From NCBI RefSeq assembly GCF_900187305.1, contig NZ_LT906434.1, positions 682,001-746,000 of the forward strand: a stretch of 64,000 nt of DNA, written 5' to 3'. Shown in pieces: positions 51,221-64,000 of this stretch; the first letter of the stretch is position 1; each line of letters begins with the position of its first letter. The DNA is from Neisseria zoodegmatis (GTDB lineage: Bacteria > Pseudomonadota > Gammaproteobacteria > Burkholderiales > Neisseriaceae). The position numbers and the translations under genes were made by a program. Below the pieces are notes generated by a model. That model was not told where the DNA came from. It did no database searches and saw nothing but the letters and a program-made list of their open reading frames with translations.

Positions 51221-51268
51221 AACGCTTTCAGGCCGTCTGAAAGCGTTTTTTATTTTCAGACGGCCTCA
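51221..51268 (+). terminator. Nested terminator built on an uptake sequence after rppH
   Basis: AACGCTTTCAG and CTGAAAGCGTT form a perfect 11-base stem with loop GCCGT, followed by a T-rich tract; the uptake sequence AGGCCGTCTGAA spans the loop. A second, inverse uptake sequence at 51254-51267 offers an alternative hairpin. Confidence 0.85.
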
Positions 51269-51302
51269 CTGATTAAAACCTGCCACAAACATACCGCCCG
51301 CC

Positions 51303-52007
51303 ATGACCCGCTCCGAACGCCTGCTCAACCTGTTGCAACTGCTGCGCAACCACCGTCTCCCCGTTACCGCCGATACACTGGCGGAAACGCTTTCCGTGAG
51401 CGTGCGCACCATATACCGCGACATCGAAACCCTGTGTCGTCAGGGAGCGGATATACGCGGCGAGGCGGGTGTCGGTTTTATTCTCCACAAAGATTTTCTG
51501 CTGCCGCCGCTTTCGTTCAACGCCAACGAAATCGAAGCCCTCGTGCTCGGCATGCGTTGGGTGCTGGCTTATACCGACAACGCATTGGCGCAAGATGCCA
51601 AATCGGTGTTGGCGAAAGTGCAGGCCGTGCTGCCGGAAAACATGGCGGATTTATTGGACAGCCAAGCCTTGTTTCCCGTTCGCGATCATGCGGAATACGG
51701 CGAACACGAGCAGCATGTTCTCAACACCATTCGCGCCGCCATCCGCAGCAACCGCAAACTCGAATTCGACTACATCGATGCCGAAAACCGCCCGAGCCGC
51801 CGCACCGTGTGGCCGTTTTCCATCGGCTATTTCGACGACGCGCGGCTGGTGTCGGCTTGGTGCGAACTGCGGCAGGATTTCCGCCATTTCCGTTCCGACC
51901 GCATCGGCAAAGCCGTGATCGGCGACATTTATCCTACCCCGCGCATGCTTTTGCTGGACGAATGGCGGCGCAGGGAAGGCATCGACCTGCATCCGTTCGA
52001 TTTTTGA
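51303..52007 (+). CDS. WYL-domain transcriptional regulator (YafY family)
   Basis: A 234-residue regulator. The N-terminal DeoR-like winged helix (RLLNLLQLLRNHRLPVTADTLAETLSVSVRTIYRDIETL) is followed by a WYL domain with LEFDYIDAENRPSRRTVWPFSIGYFDDARLVSAWCELRQDFRHFRSDRI. WYL domains bind small ligands or nucleic acids. It sits 82 bases upstream of a glutathione transferase gene in the same direction and may regulate it. Confidence 0.9.
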   Translation: MTRSERLLNLLQLLRNHRLPVTADTLAETLSVSVRTIYRDIETLCRQGADIRGEAGVGFILHKDFLLPPLSFNANEIEALVLGMRWVLAYTDNALAQDAKSVLAKVQAVLPENMADLLDSQALFPVRDHAEYGEHEQHVLNTIRAAIRSNRKLEFDYIDAENRPSRRTVWPFSIGYFDDARLVSAWCELRQDFRHFRSDRIGKAVIGDIYPTPRMLLLDEWRRREGIDLHPFDF

Positions 52008-52089
52008 GGCCGTCTGAAACCCTGCTGACAAAAACTGACACGCGCCGCCCGTAAAATCTTCCTACCCTTCCCGATATTTGGAGAACGAC

Positions 52090-52689
52090 ATGAAAGACTT
52101 TACCCTCTACACCGTACCCCAATCACGCGGCGGCATGGTTTTGTGGATGCTTGAAGAATGCGGCGCCGATTACGATACCGTGGTGTTGTCTTACGACAGC
52201 GTCAAATCCCCCGACTATCTCGCCGTCAATCCGATGGGCAAAGTGCCTGCCTTAAAACACCGCGGCCAAGTGCTGACCGAATCGGCCGCCATCGTTACCT
52301 ACCTTGCCGAACAGTTTCCCGAAAAAAATCTGATTCCCGCCGCCGGCAGCGAAGAGCGCGGGCAATATTACCGCTGGCTCTTGTTTGCTGTTCATCTCGA
52401 ATATGCCGGTGTGGACAAAATGCGCGGTTTGGAAAGCGACGAAAACATCCGCCGTGCCATCGGCTACGGCGACTTAAACACCGCCGTAAACACCTTGCGC
52501 CAACACCTCGACGGCCGCGAATATATGGTCGGCAACCACTTTACCGCGCTCGACCTTTACTACACCGGCTTGCTGGATTGGACGGTCAACCACACCGGCG
52601 CGCTGCCCGCCGATCCCGTGTTCACAAGCTATATCAACCGCCACGCCCAACGACCCGCGGCGGTGCGTGCTGCGGAATGGAATGGTTGA
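52090..52689 (+). CDS. Glutathione S-transferase family protein
   Basis: A 199-residue protein starting at ATG 52090 after GGAGAACGAC. The thioredoxin-like N-terminal half has YTVPQSRGGMVLWMLEECG, in which Ser takes the place of the catalytic Ser/Tyr/Cys, and the cis-Pro/glutathione segment NPMGKVPAL then LTESAAIVTYLAEQFP. The helical C-terminal half has ALDLYYTGLLDW. Substrate is unknown; the neighbouring WYL regulator suggests a shared stress response. Confidence 0.88.
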   Translation: MKDFTLYTVPQSRGGMVLWMLEECGADYDTVVLSYDSVKSPDYLAVNPMGKVPALKHRGQVLTESAAIVTYLAEQFPEKNLIPAAGSEERGQYYRWLLFAVHLEYAGVDKMRGLESDENIRRAIGYGDLNTAVNTLRQHLDGREYMVGNHFTALDLYYTGLLDWTVNHTGALPADPVFTSYINRHAQRPAAVRAAEWNG

Positions 52690-53005
52690 TTGGTAAAACA
52701 GTGTTTGTCATAACAGCGTGAAGCCGTCTGAAAAAAGGCCAGTTCTTGGTAAAAAATTTTGCGATATCTAAGCTGAAGCGTTGGTATAACCGGGCATTCA
52801 CTTTGTTGTCACATTGAAATAGGAAGTGGCCGATGAATATATCGGCTGCTATCACCATAAGTCAGTACGGTTTGAGTAAAAAAACTGAGCCCTGCGTCAT
52901 GCAGAACTCAGTTTCTCTCCGCCGTTTGAATGATTCAAATATATCTGTAAGTATTCAGAGCGGTTCACTGTTATCGTGATTTCTCACTTGCGGCAGTCAA
53001 AGGAT
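52690..53005. other. Intergenic region between the GST and C25 protease genes
   Basis: About 315 bases between convergent genes, with one single uptake sequence near 52724-52733 and a hairpin terminator at 52878-52914. No gene is seen. Confidence 0.5.
52878..52914 (-). terminator. Intrinsic terminator after the C25 protease gene
   Basis: AAACTGAG pairs with CTCAGTTT, with an inner CTGC/GCAG stem. On the minus strand the hairpin is followed by TTTTTTT. It is about 90 bases beyond the protease stop. Confidence 0.75.
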
Positions 53006-55333
53006 TCAAGCTGCTTTGCGTTTTCCTTTTTTCTTTCTCCTTTTTTTCCTTTGAGCAGTCCATCCGAATGGATAACTAAACTCCCAGCCTGATCCCGAAA
53101 TGCGGGTCAGTTTGCAAGTATCAACGTATCCCACAAACCGCTTGTAGTAGGAAGATGAGAACTTAATCCGGAATTCGAATTTGTGATCGCTTCGCACGGA
53201 ACTTACACCCGGTTGGGCAGGAGAGAATCCTCCCAGAGTTCCCTCGAAGGAGTAGCTGTGGTTTCTATTAACATACTGACCAGAAATACTCCAAACCGGT
53301 GCTTGCAGACCAGAAGGGGAGGTTTCTACACGGTAGTTCCAAATTCTGTCTACTTTCAGGGTGCCTTTCCATTTGTCGTAGAGGAATTCCCAACGACCCC
53401 TCAACCATTCGGCATTGCTGGCTACATGAGCGGTAAGCTCGCCGAAAAGGTTGTACATAAGCATGTTGTCCATATGATAGACGGAATTTGGGTGGTTTCG
53501 TATCATCATGGTTTTGGCATAGCGAACAATGGCAGCCGGAGTGGCACATTTGCCACTTATCACAGCATCCAATAAATACCTGGCGAAGTCATTATTGGGA
53601 TGAGTCCACGAATCGCGCGAACTGGCAAACACAGAAATGGCTTTACGCCTGCGGATAAATGTTTCCGTAATGGTTTCGAGATGATTGAAGTCCACCGCAC
53701 CGTTCGAGCAGCATACGCTCAGCACGAAAGGAGGAAAACATCCGTTGGAAAGCTGCTCAACATCTTCACAGCGGAGCCCGTTGCTGGATGACCACTCCGT
53801 TACGTCGCCGTGCCCACGATAAAGTGCCATCACAACTCCGTTGTTCATCGTATTGATCACATCTTGCCTAGAAGTGTCTGTGGCATATCGTTTGATAGTA
53901 TTGTAGCGATGATGGATTCGATCGTAGATTTCGTCGCAGTTGTCTCTGTATACAGAATCTTTGTGAGAACACAACATCACCCGATTCTGCCAGCCGCCCC
54001 AATCTCCCCTACGACGATTTGCGTATCCGGTGAGGTGTCTACAGACTTGTTTGAGGACAGCAGGATCGGAAGTAGGAATACGCGAGAGTGCCAATTCAGG
54101 CACAAGATCGTCGGAAACATCAGTGTAATAATGGTCAGAGAGATAACCTCTTTCATAGGTATGCATAGGGATAACATCTGTATCACCTGCCAAGACGACA
54201 AAACGGGGAGGAACCCACCAGTTGTTGGTTGCCCATGTAATAAATGCTTTGATTGATTCTTTCAAATCCGAACCGGAGTGCGGAAACTCTTTCTGAATGT
54301 CTTCAGTCAGCGCAACTTTGGCGTAAAACGGCCATCCTGTTTTTGCTCTCCGCAATGGTTCGACCGCATTTTCAAGAGCCCGGGTTGTAATAATCACATA
54401 CTCAGCGATGAGCCCGGCTATCTTCAGTTTGGGGCGAGGAAAAGCTGTCGGCCTTCTTGCGGTTAGACTGCGTTCTACTGGAGCCGACGTAATCAAAACT
54501 TCGTCTTCCGTTGTTTCCAGGTATGAAGCTTTATCAAGTTCATCTGGCGGCAACTCTGCTTCGGCTTCCAGTTTTTCAATAAATTCTCGATCCAGCCCTT
54601 CAAAATCTTCAATGATTGATGAATAATCGGCTTGGTCGTCCAGCAGATCTAAACCTAAAATGAGATCGGTTTCGGGCATTTGACGCGGTTTGCGGCCAAG
54701 TTTGCGGGCGCTACGCTTTTTGCCAGAAATGCTGTCGGTATCGTGTGGCGTATGGTAAGAAACTTCAAGAACGATTGACTGAACGACTTCCATGCTTTTA
54801 GATACAGGCCGGTATTGCCCCAAGTAAACAAGGATATGAGCGACTTTTACACCGGCAACAGTCTTTAAGCCCAAAAAGTCGAAATCGCGTCCGGGATAGG
54901 GTTCGTCCGAGCCATATATAGACGGATCGGGCTTATACACCTCCTTGAACTCTGATTCAATAAACTGTTTGGGAGCGGGGGCGATTTCAAGCTCGCGATC
55001 GATGGCGGTTGTGGACTTTTCAACAACGCGGACTTGCACATCCTCGGCATCCATAGGTAAAGCTACAAAGATACCGTCTTTGGGTACGGAGGGGGCTCCC
55101 TCTACGTCTATGAATGTAGTTTCGGGTATCTCCAAGCGCTTAAAGTCTGCGACCGTACCTTCCCATGCACCTGAAATGGTATATCGAACCGTTACAGCCT
55201 TATGTTGCTCTACATCATGCAGACTGCGTGCTCTAGGAGCGGCAGAGGATGTGACTGCTTTGTTAACTTCGATTTTAGGCGGTTCATTGACTTCAGAGGT
55301 ACTTTGAAAGCTAAGCCATTTTTTCTCGCTCAT
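53006..55333 (-). CDS. Gingipain-like C25 caspase-fold protease without signal peptide
   Basis: A 775-residue protein starting at ATG 55333 (MSEKKWLSFQ) after AAAAGGAGAG. Residues about 45-195 resemble the gingipain propeptide (GAPSVPKDGIFVALPMDA; YPGRDFDFLGLKTVAGVKVA; PVSKSMEVVQSIVLEVSY). Residues about 375-635 form the C25 domain: RFVVLAGDTDVIP, the catalytic His508 in YRGHGD, Cys542 in LSVCCSNG, then SVFASSRDSWTHP and MYNLFGE. A beta-rich domain follows (about 645-757) and a very basic tail (QRKKRRKKKGKRK). There is no Sec signal or membrane helix, and no type IX sorting domain. It is a single-gene unit lacking uptake sequences and probably acquired. A cytosolic or type VI-delivered role is speculation. 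Confidence 0.85.
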   Translation of the reverse strand: MSEKKWLSFQSTSEVNEPPKIEVNKAVTSSAAPRARSLHDVEQHKAVTVRYTISGAWEGTVADFKRLEIPETTFIDVEGAPSVPKDGIFVALPMDAEDVQVRVVEKSTTAIDRELEIAPAPKQFIESEFKEVYKPDPSIYGSDEPYPGRDFDFLGLKTVAGVKVAHILVYLGQYRPVSKSMEVVQSIVLEVSYHTPHDTDSISGKKRSARKLGRKPRQMPETDLILGLDLLDDQADYSSIIEDFEGLDREFIEKLEAEAELPPDELDKASYLETTEDEVLITSAPVERSLTARRPTAFPRPKLKIAGLIAEYVIITTRALENAVEPLRRAKTGWPFYAKVALTEDIQKEFPHSGSDLKESIKAFITWATNNWWVPPRFVVLAGDTDVIPMHTYERGYLSDHYYTDVSDDLVPELALSRIPTSDPAVLKQVCRHLTGYANRRRGDWGGWQNRVMLCSHKDSVYRDNCDEIYDRIHHRYNTIKRYATDTSRQDVINTMNNGVVMALYRGHGDVTEWSSSNGLRCEDVEQLSNGCFPPFVLSVCCSNGAVDFNHLETITETFIRRRKAISVFASSRDSWTHPNNDFARYLLDAVISGKCATPAAIVRYAKTMMIRNHPNSVYHMDNMLMYNLFGELTAHVASNAEWLRGRWEFLYDKWKGTLKVDRIWNYRVETSPSGLQAPVWSISGQYVNRNHSYSFEGTLGGFSPAQPGVSSVRSDHKFEFRIKFSSSYYKRFVGYVDTCKLTRISGSGWEFSYPFGWTAQRKKRRKKKGKRKAA

Positions 55334-56080
55334 GTTTACTCTCCTTTTCATACAGTGGGGTAGATTTAGTTTTGTCGGCAAAGCTCACTTGTTTTAGGAG
55401 GCAGCCTTACTATTTAAAATGAGGCGACTCCGTAAAGCTAAGCATCAAACATCGATACAGTTGTAAGCACTTGCCGCCGAAATGCACAAGGCATTGGCTT
55501 TCCAAACAACAGTTACAACAAAACATACAAACCGGCACCGTGGCCTACAGTTGTTGTGCTTGGTTAAGGTTTAAAACCTTATGGCACAAACGTATGTGTT
55601 ACTGTGGGCAGCATCTTATAAATGATGCATTCATTAAATGTTATTATCATAAATAATACTTTATAAATAATAACTTATGATATAACTTTACGTTGCAATC
55701 TTGATCGGCCTGTGTCAATAAGGATTGATTTTGTTTTTCTCCTTGATCTGAAAATTGAGTACAAAAGTTGATATAAGACAATTTTTATATGAGTCAGGAC
55801 TGGCGGGCGTTCTCAAAAATGGTCATCTATTCAGAACTTTTGAAGAGGTTTTTTGCCTTGAAATAGGAATAGAACTAAATGCTTTCAGGCCGTCTGAAAA
55901 CGTTTTTGATTTTCAGACGGCCTCATTTGCTTCAGCACCCAATCCGCTTTTCCGATGCCGTCTGAAACCCCGTTTGAATCATGTTAAAATCCCGCCCGAT
56001 TGCAAGACTTTCTTATTTTTCAGACGGCCTGCCGCAAGAGGCCATCTGAAACCGCTTAAACATTTGACTGCGTAACCCTC
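55334..56080. other. Long intergenic region between the C25 protease and parE
   Basis: About 750 bases. The half next to the protease is AT-rich (strongest near 55600-55700) and should hold its promoter. The half next to parE holds an inverted uptake-sequence pair (55887-55924) and further single copies. I see no convincing small gene. Confidence 0.5.
55887..55924. repeat. Inverted uptake-sequence pair upstream of parE
   Basis: AGGCCGTCTGAAAACG and the inverse TTTTCAGACGGCCT, between divergent genes. Confidence 0.65.
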
Positions 56081-58063
56081 ATGACCACACCCCAATACAG
56101 CGAATCCAGTATCACCGTCCTCAAAGGCTTGGAGCCGGTAAAAGAGCGACCGGGCATGTACACCCGCACCGACAGCCCCACCCACATCTGCCAAGAGGTG
56201 ATCGACAACGCCGCCGACGAAGCGCTCGGCGGTTTTGCCGACGAAATCAAAGTGGAAATCCATGAAGACGGCTCGCTTTCCGTACGCGACAACGGGCGCG
56301 GCATTCCGGTGGGGCTGCATCCGGTGGAAGGTTTGCCGGTGGTGGAGCTGGTGTTCACTCAGCTTCATGCGGGCGGTAAGTTCAACAAGAAAGACGGCGG
56401 CAGCGCGTATGCCTTTTCAGGCGGCCTGCACGGGGTGGGCGTATCGGTAACCAACGCGCTTTCCAAACGCCTCGAAGTGACCGTGAAGCGCGAAGGCAAA
56501 ATCCACCGCATCGTGTTTGCGGGCGGCGCGGTGGTGGAGCCGTTGGCCGAGGTCGGCAAATGCGCGGTGAAAGACAGCGGCACCGAAGTGCGCGTGTGGC
56601 CGGACGGCAAATATTTTGAAAGCCCGCAATACAGCATCGCCGAGCTTGAGCGCCTGTTGCGCGCCAAAGCCGTGCTGCTGCCGGGCGTTACCGTGTCGCT
56701 CACCCGCCCCGTCAAAGGCCAGCCCGAGCCGCACGTGCAGACATGGCATTACCCCAACGGCCTGAAAAGCTATCTGCTCGACTTAATCAGCGAGGCGCAA
56801 GAAGCCGTGCCGGTGTTCGCTTCGGAAAACTATCTTTCAGACGGCCACGACAGTGATTTCAGCGCAGGCGAAGGCGCGGCGTTTGCGCTCACTTGGCTGG
56901 AAGAAGGCTCGTGCAACAGCGAAAGCTATGTGAACCTGATTCCCACCCCGCTCGGCGGCACGCACGAAGCCGGTTTGAAACAAGCCGTGTTCCAAGCGGT
57001 GAACAACTTCATCAACCACCACAATCTGCTGCCACGCGGCGTGAAAGTGCAGAGCGACGACGTGTTCGGCCGCGTGGCATTCGTGTTGTCCGCCCGCGTG
57101 CTCGACCCGCAATTCCAAGGCCAAACCAAAGACAAGCTCACCAACCGCGACGCGCTCAAACTCGTGGCCGCCGTATCGGGCGACCCGCTGGAATTGTGGC
57201 TCAACCAAAACGTCGAAGCCGGTAAAAAAATCGCCGAACTCGCCATCAAGCAGGCGCAGGCGCGGATGCGTTCGGTGAAGAAAATCGAAAAGAAAAAAGG
57301 CAGCGGTGTGGCCGTGCTGCCCGGCAAGCTCACCGATTGCGAAAGCGAAGACATCCGAGAAAACGAACTCTTCTTAGTGGAGGGCGATTCGGCAGGCGGT
57401 TCGGCCAAACTCGCGCGCGACAAAGCCACCCAAGCCATTTTGCCCTTGCGCGGCAAAGTGTTGAACAGCTTTGAAGTGCATCAAGACCAACTGTTCGGCA
57501 ATGCCGAAATCCACGACATCGCCGTCGCCATCGGCGTTGATCCGCACGGTGCGAATGACAACCCCGATTTAAGCGGCCTGCGTTACGGCAAAATCGCCAT
57601 CCTCTCCGATGCCGACGTGGACGGCTCGCACATCCAAGTGCTGCTGCTTACCCTGTTTTACCGCCACTTCCCCAAACTGGTTTCAGACGGCCATATTTAT
57701 GTCGCCCAACCGCCGCTGTTCCGCGTGGATGTCAACGCCCAAGGCAAAAGCAAGCCCGCGCGCAAATTCTACGCGCTCGATCAGGGCGAGTTGGACGGCA
57801 TTTTGGAGCGCCTGCAAAAAGAAGGCGTGAAAGAAACCGCCTATTCCATCAGCCGCTTCAAAGGCTTGGGCGAGATGAACCCCGACCAGCTCAAAGACAC
57901 CACCATGCACCCCGACACCCGCCGCCTGTTGCAGGTGCAGATTCCCGAAACGGCGCACGAACAAACCCACAGCATCTTTGTCAAATTGATGGGCAAAGGC
58001 GAAGCCGCCAGCCGCCGCGCGTGGATGGAGGCCGAAGGCGATACGGCAGAAGTGGATATTTAA
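56081..58063 (+). CDS. parE: DNA topoisomerase IV subunit B
   Basis: A 660-residue GHKL ATPase plus TOPRIM protein. The ATP site shows EVIDNAADEALGG and RDNGRGIPVG, with GGKFNKKDGGSAYAFSGGLHGVG as the lid region. The TOPRIM acidic motif ELFLVEGDSAGGSAK and the DADVDGSHI motif are intact. The shorter length and the KPARKFYALDQGELDGIL segment distinguish ParE from GyrB (about 800). It decatenates daughter chromosomes with ParC. Two in-frame uptake-sequence variants encode SDGHDSD and SDGHIYV. Confidence 0.95.
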   Translation: MTTPQYSESSITVLKGLEPVKERPGMYTRTDSPTHICQEVIDNAADEALGGFADEIKVEIHEDGSLSVRDNGRGIPVGLHPVEGLPVVELVFTQLHAGGKFNKKDGGSAYAFSGGLHGVGVSVTNALSKRLEVTVKREGKIHRIVFAGGAVVEPLAEVGKCAVKDSGTEVRVWPDGKYFESPQYSIAELERLLRAKAVLLPGVTVSLTRPVKGQPEPHVQTWHYPNGLKSYLLDLISEAQEAVPVFASENYLSDGHDSDFSAGEGAAFALTWLEEGSCNSESYVNLIPTPLGGTHEAGLKQAVFQAVNNFINHHNLLPRGVKVQSDDVFGRVAFVLSARVLDPQFQGQTKDKLTNRDALKLVAAVSGDPLELWLNQNVEAGKKIAELAIKQAQARMRSVKKIEKKKGSGVAVLPGKLTDCESEDIRENELFLVEGDSAGGSAKLARDKATQAILPLRGKVLNSFEVHQDQLFGNAEIHDIAVAIGVDPHGANDNPDLSGLRYGKIAILSDADVDGSHIQVLLLTLFYRHFPKLVSDGHIYVAQPPLFRVDVNAQGKSKPARKFYALDQGELDGILERLQKEGVKETAYSISRFKGLGEMNPDQLKDTTMHPDTRRLLQVQIPETAHEQTHSIFVKLMGKGEAASRRAWMEAEGDTAEVDI

Positions 58064-60807: not shown

Positions 60808-61071
60808 ATGAAAGGAATTATCCGCTTGGGCGATGCGACCACCCACGGTGGAAATGTCATTCAGGCCTCATCGCAAATGGTTATTGATGGCAAGCCGGCG
60901 GCTTTGGTGGGTGATATGGTCAGCTGCCCGGTGCCCGGCCATGGTGTGAATCCCATTATTGAAGGAAGCACTTTTATGTCTTTTCAAGATAAAGCGGTTG
61001 CCGTTGAAGGGTGTAAATGTGCTTGTGGCTGCGCGTTGATCAGCAGCATGCCGTCTGTGGGGAGTGATTGA
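60808..61071 (+). CDS. PAAR-domain type VI secretion spike-tip protein
   Basis: An 87-residue PAAR protein. IIRLGDATTHGGNVIQASSQMVIDGKPAALVGDMVSCPVPGHG holds the proline/glycine motifs and the His/Cys zinc ligands. The C-terminal CKCACGC cluster is typical of the short DUF4150/PAAR subgroup. Such proteins cap VgrG and sharpen the puncturing tip; with no C-terminal extension this one carries no effector itself. AAGGAACGGTTCT precedes the ATG. The next gene starts inside its stop codon, so both are translationally coupled. Confidence 0.9.
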   Translation: MKGIIRLGDATTHGGNVIQASSQMVIDGKPAALVGDMVSCPVPGHGVNPIIEGSTFMSFQDKAVAVEGCKCACGCALISSMPSVGSD

Positions 61072-62246
61072 TGGACTGGCCGATTCCTGATATTCCTGAA
61101 GTGGTAAAGCTGGAAAAATATCGCTTTGATAAGCCCTTATTTTGGTTTGCGGGCTTGTTTATTATATTTTTGCTGAGTGTGCCGGTTATCTTATCTCTTT
61201 GGCAAAACAGACCTTTTTCGCTGCTTTTTTGGGTATTGTTGTTTGGCGTCCCTTTATTGTTGTGGGGGAGCTTACGCTTGATGTTTTTTTCTTGGGAATA
61301 CAGCCGGAAAAGCCAATTTGATGCGTGGGAAGTGGAAAAAAACAGAATCCGCCAGCATTGGCAAAATTGGGCGCAAAAAAATATTGCGGTAGTCGGCTCG
61401 GGTATTTATTTGCCTGAAAGTCTGAATGTGTCGGATGTGCTGGCTCAGCAGGGAGAAATGCGAAAAGGCAGCCCTGCCGTATTTGACCGTGCGGAAAAAG
61501 ATGATTATGAAATTAAGGAAGACATATTCAAAGAGTTTGGCGGATTTGTTGAGAGTATGTTAGCCGCTCTTCCTTATAAAGAGTTGCTTGTTTGCTTAGA
61601 TGTAGCCAATGAATATTCGAAAGAGGAAGATTTTCAAGCGCTTTCTGATTATTTGAATTACTCCGGTATTTCAGAGCAAGTCCAAACTGAAATCAGCTTG
61701 TTGGAGCACGGGATCGAGGCATTAGGTAATTGGATTCAAACTACACCTGAAAAGTTAGTTGTAGTTTTATCTTTGGCATTAAATGAAGATGAAGATAATG
61801 CTGCTCCTGAAAGTGCAGCTTGGTTTGCGTTTGTTCCCAAGCAGTCTGCGGCAAAACAGCAAGCAAATATTCAAGGATATGTGTTTAGGCAGATTGAATT
61901 GAATTATGAAGATAATGAAGCTTTAGGGGAGTTGGTGAGAAAAAAATACGCCCCTTATGCTTTAAAAGACAAAGAGCCGAGTGCGATGTGGCTGGGTAAT
62001 ATTGCGCCGGATAAGATGTCGGTTTTATTAGAGAATCTTTATGCTTCCGGCTTGAAGTTTTGGCGTGGCAAAGACGGCGTAGAGGTTCTTACGACAGATC
62101 GTTATTTCGATGGAGCCGTGAATTCGCATTGGCTGGTGTTGTGGTTTGCGCTCAATAGCGAGATGTCAGGTAAGGATGTTCTGTGGTTGGCGGGCGATCA
62201 GCAGAAGGTGTATTTGGGATTGGTTTCTTTTTCACATACCTCATAA
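61071..62246 (+). CDS. Unknown membrane protein linked to PAAR and TssM
   Basis: A 391-residue protein whose ATG at 61071 overlaps the PAAR stop (TGATG). Two transmembrane helices lie near 25-45 and 51-72 (WFAGLFIIFLLSVPVIL; LFWVLLFGVPLLLWGSLRL). The remaining about 320 residues are soluble, with an alpha/beta look and a run VVVLSLALNEDEDNAAPESAAW. I recognise no enzymatic motif. Proteins of this layout occur in type VI clusters of Acinetobacter-like type next to PAAR and TssM, which would suit an inner-membrane structural or accessory part. An effector role is also possible. Confidence 0.55.
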   Translation: MDWPIPDIPEVVKLEKYRFDKPLFWFAGLFIIFLLSVPVILSLWQNRPFSLLFWVLLFGVPLLLWGSLRLMFFSWEYSRKSQFDAWEVEKNRIRQHWQNWAQKNIAVVGSGIYLPESLNVSDVLAQQGEMRKGSPAVFDRAEKDDYEIKEDIFKEFGGFVESMLAALPYKELLVCLDVANEYSKEEDFQALSDYLNYSGISEQVQTEISLLEHGIEALGNWIQTTPEKLVVVLSLALNEDEDNAAPESAAWFAFVPKQSAAKQQANIQGYVFRQIELNYEDNEALGELVRKKYAPYALKDKEPSAMWLGNIAPDKMSVLLENLYASGLKFWRGKDGVEVLTTDRYFDGAVNSHWLVLWFALNSEMSGKDVLWLAGDQQKVYLGLVSFSHTS

Positions 62247-62536
62247 TTAAGTAAGAAAGAAACGTGAAATTGGGTTGTGGTAAAAAGGTTTCAATAACAT
62301 AGTAACGCCAATATCATAAAATAACCGCTTAACATAAACTGATTGATTTTTTCATGCGTGTTGAATAATCTTACGCCTGCGAGGAAAGTTTTTAATCGTT
62401 TGTCGTATATGTTAACGATTGAATGTGCTTGTCTATTAAAGAAATTTTAATAATGACACCAAAAAAGGAATCGCGAGATTCCTTTTTTATTTCACGTTAG
62501 TTTTACTCTTGTTGGATTTTTTGGAAATTAAAAATC
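62247..62536. other. Intergenic region before tssM
   Basis: About 290 AT-rich bases with a strong terminator near its end and no gene. Confidence 0.5.
62461..62490 (+). terminator. Perfect hairpin terminator upstream of tssM
   Basis: AAAAAAGGAATC and GATTCCTTTTTT form a 12-base perfect stem with loop GCGA. It ends the PAAR transcript, so tssM needs its own promoter or read-through. Confidence 0.88.
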
Positions 62537-64000
62537 ATGAGACCACTTTTTCTGGGTTTAATCCTTCTTGTTATCAGCATTCTATCCGGATGTTTAGTTT
62601 ATTTTTTCGGCTCTAAAATAGGCCTCGAAGGCTCAATGCAAAAAACAGTTGTTTGGATGTGCTTGGTAGTCATCACTTCACTGATTTTCCTAATGCCTAT
62701 GATCATTCGTTATGTATGGTCTGGCTGGTCGGGCCGATATGCGGGCGCAAGAAAATTAATCACAGAAGAATTGAAAGAAGAGCCTTCCGAATCCATCCGT
62801 TTACTCGGAAATGTTCAACGTTGGGAGCAGCTTCAACAAATTTACACTTTGACGACCCAATATAAAAACCATAGAAAACCTTGGATATTCGTTGATGGTT
62901 CGGATGAAGTGGTTCTGCAAGTATTCCCTGAAATTAAAACCCATTTGTGGGTAGAAAGCCATTCAGCTTTTTGGATTGATCTCCATGCTCCGGAGCCGCT
63001 TGAAGGATGGAATGGCCTGCGTGGTCAGGGTGTGCAGCCGGCTGAAGGGATTGTGTATTTGTCAGATGAAATCAATTCTGCAGAACAATTTTCCGGTGCT
63101 ATTAAATCGTTTATGGATAAGTTGGGATGGTTGCTGCCTGTTAACATGGTTTACGTTGATAGAAACCATCAGCATACCCAACCTTATTCTGTTACCCATC
63201 GCGTTTTGGAAACGAAGCAAGAAAATATTCAAAAAGATTTGGATCGATTTGCTTTTGAATTGTCTGGTATTGGTACGTTTTCGATTGAGGAGAAGCCTAC
63301 ATCGGCTGCAGCTGCGTTGTTGTCACGAAAATTACAGGTTTCAAATGGCATTATTGCAGAGAAGCTTTCTCTGAATAAAAAAGAGATGGGTAAGTCAGAC
63401 AGCCTTAATACTGTTGCTTTTGTTCATGCTAGACAGCAGGACTTGCTGCCTGATTTGATTTATCAATCTTTCAACAGTATTGCCGACTTCAATAAAGGCA
63501 AGAAATTGAAATGGACTCAGCCCGATAAAATTTACGGAGGGTTAAGCATCCTTGCTGTGTTGGCAACAGTGGGTTTCTCAATGGCTGCTTATAACAGCCA
63601 CAAAGATATGGCGACATTGCAGCAAAGTATCATGCAGTTGAAGCAGAATTCTTCTTCAATTAATAACTTAGCCGATATCATTAAATTACAAAAACAGATT
63701 ACTTACCTTGAAGAGAAAAAAGCCAGTACTTCAGGAAAAATATTGACTGCCGTAGGTTACAACCATAGTAAAGAATTGCTTGATACGGCCTATCTCGAAT
63801 ATGGCAAAGCGGTTAAAGCGGCCGTGGTTTCACCTGTTTTACAAAAATGGACTGATCATTTGTCTTATTTAGACGGATATAACAGCGCCAGTATTGAGAA
63901 TGGCGATGAGTATTACAATATCTTAAAAGCCTATCTGATGGTAACTGATAGAACCGATAAAGTAGATCCACAGTTCTTGGCTTCAAATATGCTTTTGATA
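62537..64000 (+). CDS. tssM: TssM/IcmF-like type VI secretion membrane protein (3' end cut by window)
   Basis: The frame is open from ATG 62537 to the window end (488 codons). Two N-terminal helices (about 3-24 and 38-58) and a third near 335-351 (YGGLSILAVLATVGFSMAAY) bracket a cytosolic domain. After the third helix the pattern ELLDTAYLEYGKAVKAAVVSPVL and YYNILKAYLMVTD is typical of IcmF/TssM periplasmic regions. TssM with TssL and TssJ forms the envelope-spanning complex. Where canonical TssM has PWYLVxGxxGxGKT, this protein has PWIFVDGSDEVVLQ, so the P-loop is gone. The ribosome site is weak (GGAAATTAAAAATC). Confidence 0.75.
   Translation, partial: MRPLFLGLILLVISILSGCLVYFFGSKIGLEGSMQKTVVWMCLVVITSLIFLMPMIIRYVWSGWSGRYAGARKLITEELKEEPSESIRLLGNVQRWEQLQQIYTLTTQYKNHRKPWIFVDGSDEVVLQVFPEIKTHLWVESHSAFWIDLHAPEPLEGWNGLRGQGVQPAEGIVYLSDEINSAEQFSGAIKSFMDKLGWLLPVNMVYVDRNHQHTQPYSVTHRVLETKQENIQKDLDRFAFELSGIGTFSIEEKPTSAAAALLSRKLQVSNGIIAEKLSLNKKEMGKSDSLNTVAFVHARQQDLLPDLIYQSFNSIADFNKGKKLKWTQPDKIYGGLSILAVLATVGFSMAAYNSHKDMATLQQSIMQLKQNSSSINNLADIIKLQKQITYLEEKKASTSGKILTAVGYNHSKELLDTAYLEYGKAVKAAVVSPVLQKWTDHLSYLDGYNSASIENGDEYYNILKAYLMVTDRTDKVDPQFLASNMLLI

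Follow-up and report, generated by a model that had tools for sequence, protein, structure and literature searches.

Family C25 is known for virulence proteases that cells export and for the sortase of the type IX system. Here we analyze a C25-like protein encoded in a 64,000-nucleotide stretch of the Neisseria zoodegmatis genome (contig NZ_LT906434.1, positions 682,001 to 746,000; hereafter the window, in whose coordinates all positions are given). Like the gingipains RgpB and Kgp (MEROPS C25), which the gum-disease bacterium Porphyromonas gingivalis uses to degrade tissue, it has an N-terminal prodomain of the gingipain fold. Unlike them, it lacks both a Sec leader and a type IX tail, separates prodomain and enzyme by a linker about 100 residues long, has an avidin-like-looking barrel in the place of the Ig-like domain of RgpB, and belongs to a family with, by alignment, an invariant Glu at the S1-plugging column occupied by Arg126 in RgpB. 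The type IX sortase PorU also has a C25 domain, but the match of the window protein to NCBIfam NF033707 is weak (55.5 bits against a cut-off of 420), and the window protein is leaderless and lies in a genome where we found no member of the type IX tail family PF18962 (one of 14 controls matched). By fold score it is much closer to C25 than to the other clan CD proteases separase and Csx29/TPR-CHAT of Craspase, and neither helical repeats nor any CRISPR- or cohesin-type partner showed up in the Pfam search. Finally, we found no convincing sequence similarity of its barrel to avidin, streptavidin or other calycin-type barrels, and the barrel is here part of a protease chain.

We found that the window protein belongs to a conserved, patchily spread branch of C25 proteases without export signals, a placement well supported by sequence comparison. 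What appears to be new is a C25 branch that apparently lives inside the cell: no description of one was found in titles and abstract beginnings, a search whose scope excluded subscription journals and preprints, and the papers drawn on besides PMC4357240 were excerpts of PMC10210955 and PMC3482391. A conserved leaderless branch spanning several phyla and an archaeon would mean an intracellular life for this type of protease. Studying the window protein could also explain how a C25 prodomain can inhibit when it lacks a basic plug, which signal the barrel senses, and what lies behind the strong divergence of the cleft between two Neisseria strains.

The gene and its parts are arranged as follows.

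53006..55333, minus strand: C25-family protease gene, 775 aa (open reading frame, Pfam, at least 53 family members including its own cluster, predicted fold)
55339..55346, minus strand: Shine-Dalgarno-like motif AAGGAGAG, read from the sequence just 5' of the ATG
54737..55333, minus strand: prodomain-like domain, residues 1-199, holding E126
54437..54736, minus strand: linker, residues 200-299, with a basic RKPR cluster at 214-217 (pLDDT, column counts)
53441..54400, minus strand: C25 catalytic domain, residues 312-631
53042..53416, minus strand: C-terminal beta barrel, residues 640-764, avidin/calycin-like in predicted fold
53009..53041, minus strand: basic tail, residues 765-775, in the Neisseria copies only (alignment)

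The frame runs from an ATG at 55333 to a stop at 53006 and starts with MSEKKWLSF. Two domains are recognized by Pfam, Peptidase_C25 (PF01364) at residues 312-631 (E=1.1e-52; 180 bits against a curated cut-off of 23) and Propeptide_C25 at residues 64-199 (E=8.5e-8); at E 0.001 this gene is the only Peptidase_C25 match in the 2.55-Mb genome. The predicted structure has the C25 fold, with low model confidence (pLDDT) at linker residues 265-297. Modelled alone, the C-terminal domain is avidin-like and looks like a ligand-binding barrel, and the structural alignment of the whole protein with RgpB also extends to residue 767. The basic tail is present in the window protein alone among the 46 aligned sequences, and in the second Neisseria copy as well. 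The open reading frame, the C25 domain with propeptide, the beta-rich C-terminal domain and the tail had all been proposed in a preliminary description made from the DNA letters alone, and each is borne out. A separate, stand-alone barrel family was not found: the candidates P0064-P0070 are short pieces of 113-210 aa. Two of these pair with truncated proteases on metagenome contigs of equal size (P0034/P0067, 5153; P0040/P0065, 2484) and look like frameshifted or split single genes broken before the barrel, for which sequencing error and gene decay are both conceivable.

Concerning export, the highest 19-residue hydropathy mean of the window protein is 1.53 and lies within the prodomain. By hydropathy and by eye, without a dedicated predictor, we could not find a Sec leader in any of the 46 aligned sequences, its own included, most of which start like MSEKKWISF; P0009 (Methanosarcina) enters the alignment later, its true start being unsure, and P0004, P0008 and P0043 reach means of 1.85-1.99. 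No type IX C-terminal sorting domain was matched in the window protein by Pfam or NCBIfam, and SprA_N, which matched neither the genome nor the controls, is uninformative. The only in-frame upstream start, a TTG at 55381, would add 16 residues unlike a signal peptide, so the missed leader that might have overturned the preliminary description did not materialize. Hydropathy and profile searches thus agree with its claim that signal peptide, membrane helix and type IX tail are all absent, and the leaderless state is common to the relatives. A cytosolic location is likely, and the earlier reading, upheld in part, gains support in its broad outline of a putative zymogen inside the cell.

The protein search scored 7994 candidates; among the 56 matches listed, 53 are of the same family (P0001-P0053) and three are distant. 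P0001 is the window's own cluster, and P0002-P0053 are 38-66% identical to the window protein; two fragments and five sequences at greater distance came from a profile search. The few named members come from a Desulfobacteraceae metagenome-assembled genome (MAG), Desulfobacter curvatus, Methanosarcina sp. KYL-1 and a Phycisphaerae MAG, so that the branch is shared with sulfate reducers and with a methanogenic archaeon. The alignment comprised 46 sequences, the window protein plus 45 of the 56 matches listed, with P0001, the partial or truncated P0033, P0034, P0040, P0042 and P0051-P0053, and the three distant matches left out. In a tree of 55 rows, the 47 family rows formed one group (100/99) to the exclusion of eight other C25 proteins, and both Neisseria copies joined the Desulfobacteraceae, D. 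curvatus and Methanosarcina sequences in a group of 14 rows (96/94); this tree has a midpoint root and long outside branches, and we claim the grouping alone. Plasmid and phage records gave no match, and three scans of viral contigs (queries A1, P0007 and P0043) no relative. A C25 protease without a leader, presented earlier as stand-alone, is therefore real but not unique, since a patchy leaderless C25 family exists.

Three residues of the active site and its pocket are encoded as follows.

53810..53812, minus strand: codon of catalytic His508 (RGHG), His in 46/46, aligned with the RgpB and Kgp His
53708..53710, minus strand: codon of catalytic Cys542 (CC[QSEK]N), Cys in 46/46, aligned with the RgpB and Kgp Cys
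53933..53935, minus strand: codon of Asp467, aligned with RgpB Asp163

His508 and Cys542, already singled out as the catalytic pair, hold in every aligned sequence, window included. Correspondences with RgpB and Kgp were counted by hand along the printed profile alignment; the catalytic His of RgpB is numbered 221 in the review PMC4357240, and residue 211, between Gly210 and Gly212, in the aligned chain. According to the same review, RgpB Asp163 forms a salt bridge to the P1 Arg and Trp284 lids the pocket (PMC4357240). The window protein keeps both this S1 Asp and the lid Trp of Arg-gingipains, the latter as W576: column 467 is Asp in 39 and Asn in seven of the 46 sequences, and column 576 Trp in 34 and Pro in 12. 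From these counts an Arg preference is likely for the main clade only. A second clade (P0036-P0049) has Pro in place of the lid Trp (12/46 sequences) and, for part of it, a shifted acid at 467-468; its specificity may differ. We also considered D459 as a third catalytic acid (aligned with Kgp D388 and RgpB E152), but this column is mostly Ser or Ala in the family and was not used.

In gingipain R the prodomain inserts Arg126 into S1, according to PMC4357240. The corresponding column, Lys in Kgp, is Glu126 in 46/46 sequences; the RgpB prodomain match is weak (E 0.02), Arg126 was identified through a chain offset of 19 of our own reckoning, and the loop alignment may be shifted. A prodomain brake, if present, would for this reason probably work unlike the basic plug of RgpB.

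Patchy occurrence and tree placement together indicate that the gene reached Neisseria by horizontal transfer, a conclusion well supported by these sequence comparisons. It is present in 2/46 Neisseria genomes and 2/83 in the Neisseriaceae sample, and a full-length member occurs in 1/398 phylum, 1/369 class and 1/399 order genomes, always the window's own. Scanning genome contigs with the window protein returned its Neisseria relative as the only match. Four other genomes of the class sample have partial C25-like matches; three of these proteins have a leader-like hydrophobic start, and the frame of the fourth is cut by the end of the locus. A gammaproteobacterial C25 protein of 715 aa (L043) begins with what looks like a leader and, judged by eye, has a segment resembling the prodomain of the family; it is possibly an exported cousin.

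The gene lies in an inserted segment edged by uptake sequences.

52733..55884, no strand: inserted segment of about 3.15 kb, absent from genome G002 (BLAST and junction comparison)
52723..52732, plus strand: DNA uptake sequence core, left edge
55889..55898, plus strand: DNA uptake sequence core, right edge
52878..52918, minus strand: terminator-like hairpin 3' of the protease gene (-25.2 kcal/mol, z -5.3)

Judged by parE, G002 is closely related (97% across the 820 bases that were searched). The insert starts at the uptake sequence after gst (52723), ends at the one before parE (55889), and has the protease as its sole likely gene among open reading frames of at least 80 aa. The WYL-regulator stretch (about 51300-52047) is missing from G002 as well, and the locus of G042 lacks everything from about 51243 to 55883, gst included; in view of these differences, the stretch from the NUDIX gene to parE is a variable slot. 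The second carrier, Neisseria sp. MVDL19-042950 (locus L002, G028:C44), has the gene at the same place between gst and parE. All this fits acquisition by natural transformation, as we would infer. The preliminary description had remarked that the gene is free of uptake sequences in a region dense with them, and the gap is indeed the longest in the window (3166 bp, 52723-55889; 90 copies per 64 kb). It is weak evidence all the same, and we rejected it as proof of foreign origin, as about one gap of this length is expected if copies are random. Base composition was likewise rejected as proof, its deviation being too mild (gene G+C 0.476, window 0.511; at third positions 0.466, where five neighbouring genes have 0.479-0.740). 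None of 200 shuffles was as stable as the hairpin, which a simple terminator scanner did not list, and Rfam at gathering scores gave no match in 52000-56200.

The two Neisseria alleles (L002 8001-10346 against window 53006-55333) are set apart by 41 substitutions and, following residue 393, an insertion of six residues. Twelve of the 41 lie within six residues of the cleft anchors (2.9 expected), as do four of 54 synonymous codons (3.8 expected). Fisher p is 0.006 at this radius and 0.027, 0.008 and 0.023 at radii 4, 8 and 10, values that are optimistic because the six anchors (467, 507-509, 542 and 576, based on RgpB contacts) were chosen after the differences were known. The dN/dS ratio is 0.25 for the whole gene and 0.63 across the 54 codons of the cleft set; it is as low as 0.08 for the prodomain and 0.09 for the barrel (dN 0.0031, dS 0.0334). 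Synonymous divergence is uneven, 0.20 in the C25 domain and 0.03 in the barrel, and imported DNA may therefore account for part of the pattern. With respect to the wider family, the window protein departs at 12 of the 162 columns that 43 or more of the other 45 sequences conserve; these include 456, 457, 546 and 549 (catalytic domain) as well as 740 and 751 (barrel). More departures are seen only in P0050 and P0035, and 20 of the 31 relatives P0002-P0032 have 0-3. Given such a remodelled cleft, the targets of the Neisseria enzyme probably differ from those of its bacterial and archaeal relatives.

We favour, with a probability of about 0.42, a horizontally acquired leaderless C25 protease kept as an intracellular zymogen, opened by a signal and cutting cellular proteins after Arg; its zymogen behaviour, the sensing by its barrel and its targets are what we infer. 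The protease would stay in the cytosol, shut by its prodomain through contacts unlike the basic plug of RgpB. A signal, possibly a ligand or partner held by the barrel, would open it. It would then cut its own basic linker, near RKPR 214-217 or near K304, and once released would cleave cellular proteins after Arg. A broader proposal we consider unlikely as a whole: that bacteria and archaea share intracellular gingipain zymogens gated by a ligand through a sensor barrel of avidin type, that these spread from phylum to phylum as one gene and serve in caspase-like regulated self-cleavage, possibly upon phage or stress, and that fast cleft change has re-aimed the Neisseria branch at new targets. 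Alternatively, the enzyme might be a constitutive intracellular peptidase for processing or quality control, with the prodomain as a folding scaffold and the barrel binding substrate. The conserved all-in-one architecture, the terminator-like hairpin behind a gene with no likely partner in the insert, and the basic S1 plug missing by alignment speak for this, but its patchy occurrence is unlike that of a housekeeping enzyme, and we regard it as doubtful. That it could serve in conflict, shutting down the cell as an anti-phage or suicide protease once set off through the barrel, is distinctly unlikely: PADLOC matched the protease to no family even at E 1, no defence genes were recognized beside it in Neisseria (the neighbours were not PADLOC-scanned), and the fold is common to clan CD proteases generally. 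Highly improbable is a recently acquired passenger without selected function, for which the presence in two of 46 Neisseria genomes and the many departures at conserved columns might speak; both alleles are intact despite 41 substitutions and a six-codon length difference, with the low dN/dS given above, overall and in the prodomain.

The preliminary description had also raised delivery by a type VI secretion system (T6SS), whose locus is real: a PAAR gene lies at 60808, about 5.5 kb away, and the cluster covers 60808-64000 and continues past the window in L038, including genes that we take by size and order, rather than by profile searches, to be TssM, TssA, TssF, TssG and TssJ. A secreted effector or virulence protease, using this or another Sec-independent route, could account for the Neisseria-specific basic tail and for a cleft that varies between both carriers. 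However, linkage is absent in the second carrier, which keeps the protease between gst and parE on contig C44, 59 kb or more away from both contig ends, and has its matching TssM, 49% identical, on contig C12. Moreover, Pfam showed no recruitment domain in the protease, be it PAAR, VgrG or another, we saw no likely immunity gene among the open reading frames of at least 80 aa in the insert, and the aligned relatives are also leaderless, one of them archaeal. Delivery by the nearby T6SS is thus not upheld, and an exported effector of any kind is improbable.

Another TssM-like gene, a distant one, is found in the window's own genome at G000:C1:1950052-1952280.
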